NCBI GenBank assembly: GCA_029060585.1
Contig: JAIDTS010000012.1
Location: 1 to 26,631, forward strand
Reading direction: 5' to 3'
From: Muribaculaceae bacterium
GTDB taxonomy: Bacteria; Bacteroidota; Bacteroidia; Bacteroidales; Muribaculaceae
DNA: 26,631 nucleotides
A program made the position numbers and the translations under genes. Positions 4,302 to 12,662 of the stretch are shown here, one piece after another. The notes beneath the pieces are model-generated. The model did not search any database and was not told the DNA's origin. It worked only from the letters and a program-made list of their open reading frames with translations. Position 1 is the first letter of the stretch, and the number at the start of each line of letters is the position of its first letter.

Positions 4302-4340
4302 ATTAATTGATCATTAATAATTAATCATTTATCATTGATT
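4302..4340. repeat. Heptamer array in the dgt/TPM-gene spacer
   Basis: AT-rich 7-bp units of type ATTAATM or ATTTATC (plus strand), clearest at 4313-4340, fill the whole gap between the dgt stop and the TPM start codon. On the coding (minus) strand the units read GATTAAT or TATTAAT and end at the ATG at 4300. The 24 bases at 4313-4336 recur exactly at 10800-10823. Member of the heptamer-array set described under findings. Confidence 0.8.
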
Positions 4341-5661
4341 ACACCGCCGGAAGCGAATGCCCGTTGAGCGTGCGGAATAGGTCGAGCGCGTAGACGTCGG
4401 TCATGGCCGAAACGTGGTCTACCACTCCCTGGAGTCTTGAGTTGAGGCTGTCGGAGCGGACGTCGTATTGGCGAGGCACCTTCTCGAGCAGCAGGCGCGA
4501 ATATGCCTTCTCAGGCGCCATGACCGCTCCTACAAGATTTTCCATCAGATAAGTTATGATGCGGTTGCCTGCCAGTTCTATATCAATTACCTGAGGGGAA
4601 TTATAAATCTTCTTCCAGGCCGTCTCGCTGCATCGGGCATATGCGTCGGCAAGGCGTCCGTCTACATTTTTCGTCAACGCTCCATGATAGTCTCCCGCGA
4701 GTATCTCCTTCTCGTGGTCGGCGAATTCCTTCGAGCATCCTCCTACGAGAGCTCCTATCACTTTCGACCGCATGTAGCCAACCTGCTCGTTGGGGTCGTC
4801 GAGCCGCCTCATAGAGGCCGTCATGTGTTCCTGCTCAGACTTATCGAAGAAATCCAGCATCAGGCTCTTAACCTCTTCGGTGGAGACAATCTTCAGCTTA
4901 TGGGCGTCCTCCAGATCCATGATCTGGTAGCAAATGTCGTCGGCCGCCTCCATCAGGAACACGAATGGATGGCGAGCATGGCGTCCGTGCTCTATTTCGG
5001 GAATGCCCAGCTCTTCGGCCACCTTCAGATAAGTCTCCTCCTCCGTCTCGAAATATCCGAACTTTCCCTTCTCCCCCGCGAGAGTAGATGCGAAAGGATA
5101 TTTCACTACGGATGCGAGCGCGCTGTAGGTCATCGCGAAGCCACCCTCGCGTCGTCCTTCAAATTTGTGGGTTAGCAGCCGGAATGAATTGGCGTTGCCC
5201 TCGAAATGAGCGAAATCACTCCATTGATGGGGAGTGAGGAACGGTTTCAGTGCCATTCCCTTTCCTTCGGTGAAGAAGGTAGAGATCGTCTTCTCTCCGT
5301 TGTGTCCGAAAGGTGGATTCCCGAGGTCATGGGCGAGGCAGGCTGTGGCTACTATGTCGCCCATGTCGCTCAGGCAAGCGGTGCGAATGTCGTAGCCGTG
5401 GCGTTCGATGAGTATGTTGGCCACCTCGTTGGCCATCGACCGTCCTACCGACGACACCTCAAGGCTGTGCGTCAGACGGTTGTGGACGAAGATGGAGCCC
5501 GGCAGAGGAAACACCTGTGTCTTGTTCTGCAGCCTTCTGAAAGGGGATGAGAAGACAAGCCGGTCATAATCGCGCTGGAAATCAGAGCGCGTGTGCTGCT
5601 GAGGGTCATGGTATTGTTCGAGCCCCAGTCGCTTGTCGGATATGAGCGAGTTCCAATTCAT
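4339..5661 (-). CDS. dgt: Deoxyguanosinetriphosphate triphosphohydrolase (HD-domain dNTPase)
   Basis: A 440-residue cytosolic enzyme that cleaves dGTP (or dNTPs) to the nucleoside and triphosphate, helping to control dNTP pools. The HD metal site is complete: H65 in NRLTHSLEV, H111-D112 in LAHDLGNPPFGHNG, and D241/D242 in MEAADDICYQI. The N-terminal FRRLQNKTQVFPL stretch and FEGNANSFRLL are also typical of dGTPases. Length fits the shorter Bacteroidetes form. It begins MNWNSLISDKRLG right beside AT-rich spacer DNA and leads a two-gene minus-strand unit with the TPM gene. A TAnnTTTG-like box at 5666-5673 on its strand lies only 4 nt from the ATG, so it is a doubtful promoter. The overall call is firm. 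Confidence 0.93.
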   Translation of the reverse strand: MNWNSLISDKRLGLEQYHDPQQHTRSDFQRDYDRLVFSSPFRRLQNKTQVFPLPGSIFVHNRLTHSLEVSSVGRSMANEVANILIERHGYDIRTACLSDMGDIVATACLAHDLGNPPFGHNGEKTISTFFTEGKGMALKPFLTPHQWSDFAHFEGNANSFRLLTHKFEGRREGGFAMTYSALASVVKYPFASTLAGEKGKFGYFETEEETYLKVAEELGIPEIEHGRHARHPFVFLMEAADDICYQIMDLEDAHKLKIVSTEEVKSLMLDFFDKSEQEHMTASMRRLDDPNEQVGYMRSKVIGALVGGCSKEFADHEKEILAGDYHGALTKNVDGRLADAYARCSETAWKKIYNSPQVIDIELAGNRIITYLMENLVGAVMAPEKAYSRLLLEKVPRQYDVRSDSLNSRLQGVVDHVSAMTDVYALDLFRTLNGHSLPAV

Positions 5662-5717
5662 TTTACAAAATTAATGATTTTATTTGTTAAAAAATCTTTA
5701 GGTATCGATTTTTTTTG

Positions 5718-5725
5718 TAATTTTG
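5718..5725 (+). promoter_or_regulatory. Bacteroidetes -7 box for the 5747 lipoprotein gene
   Basis: TAATTTTG matches the -7 consensus TAnnTTTG and lies 21 nt before the start codon. No good TTTG -33 box is found at the right distance; the nearest is TTTA at 5697-5700, with a 17-nt spacer. Transcription would start near 5730. Confidence 0.5.
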
Positions 5726-5746
5726 CGGAGTTTTTCTAATTGACAT

Positions 5747-10827: not shown

Positions 10828-10830
10828 ACG

Positions 10831-11115
10831 ATGGCACAGGAAAATCAGAATCAGCTTCAGATCCAGCTCAGCCCCGAAGTGGCAGCCGGAAAATACTCCA
10901 ACCTCGCTATGATCGGCCACAGTTCGAAGGAATTCCTCATCGACTTCATCTTCGCAGCTCCCGGAATGCCGCAGGCTCCCGTAGTGAGCCGCGTGATCAT
11001 GAATCCGGAAAACGCCAAGCAGCTCATGTATGCCCTCACAGACAATGTCCGCAAGTATGAGGAGAAGTTCGGTGAGATCGTACGTCAGAACGGCCCGGCT
11101 CCCAGCAACAACTAA
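10831..11115 (+). CDS. DUF3467 family protein
   Basis: A 94-residue soluble protein of the DUF3467 family, function unknown. It contains LSPEVAAGKYSNLAMIGHS, then EFLIDFIFAAPGM and VVSRVIMNPENAKQLMYAL, and ends in an amphipathic helix (ALTDNVRKYEEKFGEI). It has no signal peptide and no cysteine. The family is small and common in Bacteroidetes, where no role is established that I know of. cysS starts 31 nt downstream, so both probably lie on one transcript. Confidence 0.88.
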   Translation: MAQENQNQLQIQLSPEVAAGKYSNLAMIGHSSKEFLIDFIFAAPGMPQAPVVSRVIMNPENAKQLMYALTDNVRKYEEKFGEIVRQNGPAPSNN

Positions 11116-11146
11116 TCCCCCCAACCTCACAATCCAACTACCCTCC

Positions 11147-12628
11147 ATGCTCTACATCTACAACACCCTAAGCCGCATGAAGCAGCCGTTCAAGCCCCTT
11201 CACGAAGGGCGGGTCGGCATGTATGTCTGCGGCCCCACGGTCTACGGAGACGCCCATCTCGGCCATGCGCGCCCTGCCATCACTTTCGATATACTCTTCC
11301 GCTACCTAAGGCATCTCGGCTACAAGGTGCGCTATGTGCGTAATATTACCGATGTCGGGCATCTCGAGCACGACGCCGACTCAGGCGAGGACAAGGTGGC
11401 GAAGAAGGCGCGTCTCGAGCAGTTGGAGCCGATGGAGGTGGTGCAATACTATCTCAACCGCTACCATCACGACATGGAGGCCCTCAACGTGCTTCCCCCG
11501 AGTATCGAACCCCACGCCTCAGGCCACATAATCGAGCAGATCGAATACATAAAGAAGATTCTCGAGGCCGGTTATGCCTACGAGAGCCAGGGTTCCGTAT
11601 ATTTCGACGTGGCCAAATACAATAAAGACCACCGCTACGGTAAACTCTCCGGACGCAACATCGATGATCTACTCTCCACTACCCGCGAGCTCGACGGACA
11701 GGACGAGAAGCGCAATCCCCTCGACTTCGCCCTCTGGAAGAAGGCTGCCCCGGAGCACATCATGCACTGGCCCTCACCCTGGAGCGAGGGCTTTCCGGGC
11801 TGGCATCTCGAATGCTCTACGATGGGGGAGAAGTATCTCGGAGAGGAATTCGACATCCACGGCGGCGGCATGGACCTCATGTTTCCCCACCATGAGTGCG
11901 AGATAGCGCAGAGCGTGGCCGCCAAGGGACATGACACCGTGCGCTACTGGATGCACAACAACATGATCACCATAGCCGGCAAGAAGATGGGCAAGAGCTA
12001 CGGCAACTTCATCACTCTCGAGCAGTTTTTCAAGGGAGAGCATCCGCTCCTCTCGCGACCTTATTCCCCGATGGTGATCCGTTTCTTCATCCTCCAGGCC
12101 CAGTACAGGAGCACAGTCGACTTCTCCGACGCGGCCCTTCAGGCTGCAGAGAAGGCTCTCGAGAAGATGCTCGACGGTTACCGCCGTCTGCAGGCACTAC
12201 AGCCTGCTGAGAAATCAAACGTGGAACTTCCCGATTTTGCCGCGAAGTGCTATGAGGCGATGGACGACGACCTGAACACGCCGATGGTGATCGCCGAGCT
12301 CTTTGACGCATGCACGTATATCAACAAGGCCACCGACGGACAGATCACCCTCTCAGCAGAAGACATAGAGAAACTTAAAGATCTCTTCCAGACATTCCTC
12401 GTAGATCTTCTCGGCATCCGAGTGGAAGGAGGCTCAGCCGATGGAGATTCCGCTGAAAGGAAAGCCTTTGAAGGTGCCGTCGACCTTCTGATGGACGTGC
12501 GTAAGAACGCCAAGGCCGCAAAGGACTGGACCACAAGCGATCTTATCAGAGACCGCCTAGCCGCGCTCGGCTTCGACGTCAAGGATACGAAGAACGGCGT
12601 CGAGTGGAAAATCAGAAATAATTCATAA
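11147..12628 (+). CDS. cysS: Cysteine--tRNA ligase
   Basis: A 493-residue class I aminoacyl-tRNA synthetase that charges tRNA-Cys. The N-terminus LYIYNTLSR leads to CGPTVYGDAHLGHARP, holding Zn ligand C28 and the HIGH motif as HLGH (37-40). Further Zn ligands are C223 in WHLECSTM and H248/E252 in FPHHECEIAQ. The KMSKS loop is KMGKS (280-284). The C-terminal DALR and anticodon-binding helices include DDLNTPMVIAELF. The frame is open from 11030, but the extra 39 residues are just the DUF3467 gene read in another frame, so ATG at 11147 is chosen. Its last codons and TAA lie inside a heptamer array that runs on to ispG. Confidence 0.96.
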   Translation: MLYIYNTLSRMKQPFKPLHEGRVGMYVCGPTVYGDAHLGHARPAITFDILFRYLRHLGYKVRYVRNITDVGHLEHDADSGEDKVAKKARLEQLEPMEVVQYYLNRYHHDMEALNVLPPSIEPHASGHIIEQIEYIKKILEAGYAYESQGSVYFDVAKYNKDHRYGKLSGRNIDDLLSTTRELDGQDEKRNPLDFALWKKAAPEHIMHWPSPWSEGFPGWHLECSTMGEKYLGEEFDIHGGGMDLMFPHHECEIAQSVAAKGHDTVRYWMHNNMITIAGKKMGKSYGNFITLEQFFKGEHPLLSRPYSPMVIRFFILQAQYRSTVDFSDAALQAAEKALEKMLDGYRRLQALQPAEKSNVELPDFAAKCYEAMDDDLNTPMVIAELFDACTYINKATDGQITLSAEDIEKLKDLFQTFLVDLLGIRVEGGSADGDSAERKAFEGAVDLLMDVRKNAKAAKDWTTSDLIRDRLAALGFDVKDTKNGVEWKIRNNS

Positions 12629-12662
12629 TGCATAATTCATAATGCATAATTTATAATGCATA
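12621..12662. repeat. Heptamer array (ATTCATA/ATGCATA) linking cysS to ispG
   Basis: Six 7-bp units alternate ATTCATA (or ATTTATA) with ATGCATA, making three 14-bp repeats. The array starts within the last codons of cysS, includes its TAA stop (12626-12628) and ends exactly at the ATG at 12663. ATGCATA units also create three upstream ATGs, each soon followed by a stop. Confidence 0.9.

Follow-up and report, generated by a model that had tools for sequence, protein, structure and literature searches.

Heptamer arrays at gene edges in a Muribaculaceae bacterium and other Bacteroidales

The window, the whole 26,631-nt stretch of DNA analysed here, comes from a Muribaculaceae bacterium (assembly GCA_029060585.1, contig JAIDTS010000012.1, positions 1-26,631, forward strand). 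It contains five tandem arrays with a period of 7 bp, located at the edges of genes. Arrays of this kind also occur in related genomes of gut bacteria, where they keep period 7, prefer the first bases after a stop codon, and, within the clade, have lengths that peak at 31-33 bp, or about 4.5 units. They run in a mostly fixed direction at both stops and starts, their units differ between species at the same junction, and one ordered array recurs at several loci.

Five heptamer arrays and their neighbouring genes

Arrays were located with Tandem Repeats Finder (TRF), by inspection, and by a threshold scan of periods 4-12. Genes were called with a codon-usage script, so their start positions are uncertain by some codons. 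The arrays and the genes beside them are as follows.

2999-4300, minus strand: TPM-domain protein gene (Pfam PF04536, E 7e-35), whose start abuts the first array
4297-4336, minus strand: TTAATGA-type heptamer array (TRF), reading TTAATGA outward from the stop of the HD-domain gene
4339-5661, minus strand: HD-domain phosphohydrolase (dGTPase-like) gene (Pfam PF01966 and PF13286)
8832-9770, plus strand: RNA pseudouridine synthase gene, here called rluD (Pfam PF00849)
9781-9826, plus strand: AAAACGT heptamer array (TRF)
9830-10639, plus strand: PAP2-like membrane phosphatase gene, pap2 (Pfam PF01569, 26.9 bits, just below the cut-off of 27.2)
10636-10668, plus strand: TTAATGA heptamer array, left arm of an inverted pair, reading outward from the gene (TRF, threshold scan)
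10731-10748, plus strand: conserved promoter-like spacer core TTTTTTTATTAATTTCGC, recognisable in 12 of 13 orthologous spacers, the exception being genome G002
10790-10824, plus strand: heptamer array, right arm of the pair (TRF, threshold scan)
10831-11115, plus strand: DUF3467 gene (Pfam PF11950)
11147-12628, plus strand: cysteinyl-tRNA synthetase gene cysS (Pfam PF01406), whose stop lies inside an array
12618-12665, plus strand: ATAATKC heptamer array, alternating ATAATTC and ATAATGC (TRF, threshold scan)
12663-14282, plus strand: ispG (GcpE) gene (Pfam PF04551)

An earlier note on this DNA had described five arrays, one of them beginning in a stop codon. TRF and inspection confirm both points, each array lying within a few bases of its described place. 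TRF reports period 7 at 4297-4336, 9781-9826, 10636-10668, 10793-10824, and 12618-12665. Three of the five pass the threshold scan at period 7, and the sole other pass is a coding array of period 12 at 3035.

The arrays are tightly fitted to their genes. The 38-nt spacer 4301-4338 consists almost wholly of array and abuts a minus-strand ATG that ends at 4300. In the AAAACGT array the periodic run stops 3 nt before 9830, and in the array at 10790 it stops 6-7 nt before the DUF3467 start at 10831. The array at 10636 begins in the stop codon (10637-10639) of the PAP2-like gene. The array at 12618 contains both the cysS stop (12626-12628) and the first ATG of ispG (12663-12665); it begins before the stop and thus provides the last cysS codons as well. 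Since arrays supply stop codons and first ATGs, they matter for annotation.

The genes beside the arrays are housekeeping genes by Pfam, so that a link to a functional class is not needed. The core TTTTTTTATTAATTTCGC may be a promoter, judged by the Bacteroidetes -7 motif. Promoter and terminator scans of the window are uninformative, each giving 10 sites where shuffled DNA gives 6.1 and 6.8, and an Rfam search of the window yields nothing at the gathering threshold. Two other features of the window are an 18-nt inverted repeat with a 5-nt loop at 23738-23778, terminator-like and following a gene that ends at 23700, and long coding tandem repeats at the window end (26346-26626), whose consensus translation is rich in Q, G, N, and Y.

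Period, position, direction, and size

The Bacteroidales set comprises 80 loci anchored on IspG and the window, giving 81 sources. The nearest relatives by IspG among the 80 loci are L001 (88% identity) and L002 (84%), the latter from a Muribaculaceae metagenome-assembled genome. An unpicked sample of the clade covers 398 kb from six genomes, on contigs reached through gene hits and not through arrays. Period counts were compared with dinucleotide shuffles, and distances to gene edges with random placement (2000 or 4000 placements).

The earlier note had proposed a scan for an excess of period 7 over periods 6 and 8, and the excess was found. The intergenic DNA of the 81 sources holds 28 period-7 arrays, distributed over 16 sources, against 0.0 per shuffle and 0-7 arrays of other periods. 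The unpicked sample holds 25 (0.0 per shuffle), against five of period 10, three each of periods 8 and 9, one of period 5, and none of period 6. In the 340 kb of G002, period 7 accounts for 12 arrays, period 9 for six, and each remaining period for at most two. When the intergenic DNA as a whole is examined by plain autocorrelation, lag 7 does not stand out (excess 0.0067, against 0.0062 at lag 6 and 0.0061 at lag 8); the heptamer signal is therefore confined to a minority of spacers.

The trait is patchy among Bacteroidales. All three arrays found in 19 loci of the wider genus lie in a single locus, and none occur in samples of 100 kb each from X. ruminicola, B. neonati, and Proteiniphilum. 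An E. coli control has no array in 6 kb of intergenic DNA, a sample too small to mean much. The units are AT-rich, such as ATAATKC, AATTKAG, and TTAATGA, and several occur per genome. Three tandem copies of ATAATKC are found in 25 of 111 genomes and of AATTYTM in 26 of 111, long arrays being counted several times through overlapping matches; for AATTYTM, some genomes also contain matches to the reversed control (11+8 vs 27+8 in G095, 3+8 vs 1+2 in G099).

Longer and other repeats occur as well. Arrays of period 9 number 23. Those at L001 639-671, L106 9967-9991, and L102 11963-12007 are built of near-palindromic units (GTCNGACNN). Flanked by inverted arms of heptamers, the first two fold into long hairpins. 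L270 contains a giant array of about 300 bp (1926-2240), in which CTCAATT-type heptamers are joined to GAATTAT heptamers.

Four of the five window arrays reach start codons with small gaps, as the earlier note had claimed, but this does not hold as a general rule. A comparison of distances to starts with random placement, which that note had suggested, reveals no preference: 12 of 52 arrays have a start within 10 nt, where 9.2 would be expected (P=0.14), as do 2 of 21 in the unpicked sample, where the expectation is 1.6. Stops are preferred instead. Nineteen of the 52 arrays have a stop within 10 nt (8.3 expected; 0 of 2000 placements), as do 13 of the 21 unpicked arrays (2.8 expected; P<0.0003; 0 of 4000). 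The 3' end of a gene is overrun by 14 of 35 arrays, and the 5' end by two. Five of the 35 lie between convergent genes, and an avoidance of convergent spacers, suggested early on by a count of 0/52, was dropped on this later sample. Some arrays also sit between divergent genes.

These positions bear on the role that the earlier note had proposed, in which arrays act as insulators between neighbouring genes or hold the ribosome-binding region open at starts. Four of the five window arrays reach a start codon, several are A-rich, and Bacteroidetes are described as lacking Shine-Dalgarno sites. The same units nevertheless stand in opposite sense orientation before starts and after stops. Because of this flip and the arrays between convergent genes, the start-site role is weakened, and the lack of start preference in both array sets adds to making it a most improbable explanation. 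The closing of all reading frames by stops within the units was likewise rejected as the reason for the arrays: the published Xanthomonas unit yields no stop codon in tandem, and arrays are also found with period 9, which is divisible by 3.

The arrays have a direction with respect to the gene edge. All four testable arrays of the window, the AAAACGT array being left out, read outward from their gene. The direction rule was applied to loci not picked for arrays, where 68 of 102 arrays were classified in four families and 49 of these lie near one edge. The unit reads outward in 43 of the 49 (28 of 33 at stops and 15 of 16 at starts; P=5.7e-8), and in 34 of 40 when each spacer is counted once. 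By family, outward reading is found in all 20 AATTKAR arrays and in 19 of 25 ATAATKC arrays. Arrays not close to one edge read outward in 12 of 19 cases. Random stretches alone give 16 of 20 (P=0.012). G-skew or purine polarity was considered as a sequence-free form of the rule and rejected as weak.

Arrays of another period were seen in Prevotella sp. BV3P1 (L185, L187, L295, and L296), where 8-bp arrays of AGTTNACR lie at gene edges. They read outward in six of six cases within 16 nt of an edge, and one mid-spacer array is reversed.

Array length peaks at 31-33 bp in the clade, with 36 of 119 arrays in this bin and 10 and 10 in the adjacent bins. Random stretches give the same peak, at 23 of 72 arrays against 7 and 7 (P=1.4e-6). 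With picked loci included, arrays built on a TAAT box contain four boxes (29 arrays), five boxes (27), or rarely six (3), and those built on an AATT box show a broader spread of box numbers.

A recurring ordered array, unit exchange, and inverted pairs

An ordered 27-mer, which fixes a succession of variant units, occurs twice in the window, at 4310-4336 and 10797-10823. Exact copies number 13 and are spread over five of 17 relatives; when up to one mismatch is allowed, there are 29 copies in eight of the 17. Three reorderings of the 27-mer, searched in those eight genomes, have no exact copy and 2, 5, and 13 one-mismatch copies. The eight sites that were read share an identical gene-facing end; six lie at a called gene edge, and seven have AATT at the far end. 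At L264 (region 2042-2133), one short sequence, TTTCATCAA, stands between two arrays of about 31 bp and again after the second, as though some 40 bp had been duplicated as a unit.

Units also change at a fixed position. The rluD-pap2 junction carries AAAACGT in the window, GAGCGGA-type units in G099, and GCGTAAC-type units in G101; no array is scored in the other 11 of 14 genomes, and the flanking genes overlap in eight of the 14. Unrelated heptamers at this one orthologous junction bear out the statement of the earlier note that units differ while the period stays 7. Its further suggestion, a process making heptamers rather than the spread of one sequence, holds only in part, as ready-made ordered arrays appear to be copied as well. 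At the cysS-ispG junction, seven of 14 spacers have a scored array, with ATAATKC or AATTKAR units. Drift of the unit within one array, with the period retained, is seen at L277 5025-5083.

Plain local replication slippage, with selection keeping arrays out of genes, would account for part of this picture. A preference for 7 could stem from the stretch of DNA held by the polymerase, an idea that Rehm 2015 (PMC4692102) credits to earlier work. The intergenic excess, the differing units at one junction between species, the drift inside arrays, and the preference for the tolerated zone after stops all agree with slippage. It does not predict the size peak, the polarity at starts, or the exact recurrence of an ordered array. 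Already strained by these three observations, it appears quite unlikely as the whole explanation.

Some arrays occur as inverted pairs. In the window, the arrays at 10636 and 10790 are mutual inverted copies (81% over 42 nt, 96% over the inner 28 nt). The right arm (10790-10824) is the reverse complement of the left, so that walking out from the start codon one again reads TTAATGA. For 15 of 58 arrays, the same spacer holds an inverted partner (0.15 expected). In all 18 spacers with classified arrays in both halves, 10 of them from picked loci and eight not, the two arms carry the same unit inverted, although arms outside the named families are not counted.

Such pairs could be border hairpins under selection, whose inverted arms, by pairing as RNA or DNA, would form a boundary that works in both directions. 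Roles in termination, in protection of RNA ends, or in masking the next start in read-through RNA have been considered. Only pairing would matter, so units may change provided that both arms change. The pap2-DUF3467 spacer fits this expectation: the arms match in the window (TTAATGA) and in G099, G101, and G118 (ATAATKC), the unit differing between species around a conserved core. The RNA fold of 10630-10833 also has a z score of -5.4. On the other side, 43 of the 58 arrays have no partner, 44 of 62 spacers carry a solo array, and the unit pool of each genome alone predicts 13.7 of the 18 matches. In G110 the two sides of the pap2-DUF3467 spacer bear different units, GATTCCG and ATTAATA. Arrays also occur between divergent genes, where no single RNA holds both arms. 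Border hairpins are a doubtful explanation for the arrays as a whole, and a hairpin role is possible for the paired minority.

Mobile foldback or miniature inverted-repeat transposable element (MITE)-type miniature elements, with heptamer-built ends and moved whole by a transposase, would also yield inverted pairs. The same units are dispersed on both strands at many loci, and a defined sequence of 31-32 bp with similar ends occurs at eight sites. In G002, the GC-rich GGCTTCGCG recurs beside arrays as the base of hairpin cores (L102, L106, L111, and L255). At the pap2-DUF3467 spacer, however, the sequence between the arms is the native core, conserved in 12 of 13 spacers whether or not arms are present, and the arms therefore did not arrive together with the core. 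With solo arrays in the majority and Y1 transposases that do not track the arrays, we consider mobile elements an improbable source.

Interpretation and comparison with known repeats

We tentatively favour, short of calling it probable, a reading of the arrays as polar heptamer repeats of limited size, kept at gene edges and copied ready-made between spacers. Ready-made arrays of about 32 bp would be copied from spacer to spacer, and their units would drift by point mutation and then be re-amplified by 7-bp slippage. Purifying selection may clear the arrays from coding DNA, in which 7 bp shifts the frame, leaving them at gene edges and above all after stops. A spacer with the same unit at each edge can form a hairpin between its two arms, perhaps as a by-product. 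The least certain part is the direction rule, which might, speculatively, come from the way arrays are laid down, with synthesis leaving the gene edge and running 5' to 3' into the AT-rich spacer, and not from a ribosome-site function.

Several points weigh against reading the arrays as polar, size-limited, and copied. The direction rule was formed on picked loci, with unit families defined by eye there, and 34 of the 102 test arrays were dropped as their units fell outside the four families. Those of the random stretches that were fetched after the rule was formed read outward in only 11 of 15 cases (P=0.12); all four exceptions among them are mixed-unit arrays, as are four of the six exceptions in the 49-array test. 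Polarity measured by base skew, which is free of families, is weak (G>C by 29 to 19 in the clade, P=0.19). Other Bacteroidales show no size peak, with 8 of 71 arrays at 31-33 bp, and long arrays reach 312 bp. Arrays at sites shared by descent are non-independent, and with one genome per species the array differences are between species only, so that copy-number change is not directly visible. No copying machinery was found; among clade genomes 10 of 15 have a Y1 transposase, as do 63 of the 96 other genomes.

Two candidates for the machinery were rejected on gene content. One is a Y1 transposase of the repetitive extragenic palindromic (REP) type as mover, on the counts just given. The other is loss of the hairpin nuclease SbcCD as cause; 8 of the 15 clade genomes have SbcD above the cut-off, as do 48 of the 96 other genomes. 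As both clade and comparison genomes are drafts, absence of SbcD or Y1 genes is weak evidence.

Dispersed intergenic inverted repeats are familiar as REP elements and bacterial interspersed mosaic elements (BIMEs), MITEs, and foldback elements, the last with arms made of short tandem repeats. Unlike these, the arms described here flank native spacer DNA, and mostly stand alone. Cyanobacteria are said to contain short tandemly repeated repetitive (STRR) heptanucleotide sequences, reportedly described by Mazel in 1990. Cited in Rehm 2015, STRR sequences resemble the present arrays in that several tandem heptamers occur in a single genome. The open PMC literature searched yielded no description of polarity or unit switching in Bacteroidales.

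The statement of the earlier note that no counterpart had been described is too strong, given two reports. MacGregor 2015 (PMC4679880) describes TAACTGA direct repeats in Beggiatoaceae, some Cyanobacteria, and five Bacteroidetes. As presented there, they consist of one unit and lie mostly just upstream of starts in forward sense, whereas the arrays here have other units, prefer stops, and take at starts the reverse of their orientation at stops. TAACTGA occurs in none of the five window arrays and is absent from the listed unit tallies. The second report, Rehm 2015, deals with G-rich heptamers in two Xanthomonas genomes (GGGAATC) and one Nostoc genome (GGGGA(C/T)T). These are reported to lie nearer to the 5' neighbour whatever its direction, to overlap stop codons, and to be under-represented between divergent genes. 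Four units are preferred, which is tied there to quadruplex formation, and no function was found.

The likeness to the arrays of Rehm 2015 is extensive. Both sets share period 7, intergenic location, outward polarity, stop overlap, a size of about four units, dispersal on both strands, the lack of a favoured gene class, and inverted cases. They differ in that Xanthomonas and Nostoc each have one G-rich, quadruplex-forming unit type, whereas here several AT-rich units occur, with no G-quadruplex possible. Unit switching at orthologous junctions and copying of ordered arrays are found here and were not met in the available part of that paper. From the similar polarity, stop overlap, and four-unit size reported there, the present arrays look like an AT-rich Bacteroidales branch of a known, little-studied, and unexplained class of intergenic heptameric repeats.

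The bacterial heptameric excess has thus been noted before without explanation, and its best-studied case was interpreted in terms of G-quadruplexes. That AT-rich arrays agree with it in size, polarity, and stop overlap sets geometry apart from sequence, and raises the questions of what sets seven, what sets about 4.5 units, and how an array senses the gene side. The geometry common to Bacteroidales, Xanthomonas, and Nostoc, whose array sequences are wholly unlike each other, could, though we think it rather unlikely, be the signature of one general, undescribed DNA process. Such a process would lay down or copy heptamer arrays some 32 bp long, running 5' to 3' from the gene edge into the spacer, whatever their sequence. 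Start-codon regulation would then not account for the shared geometry. Nor would quadruplexes be its general reason, because the AT-rich arrays described here share it with the G-rich arrays of Xanthomonas and Nostoc.

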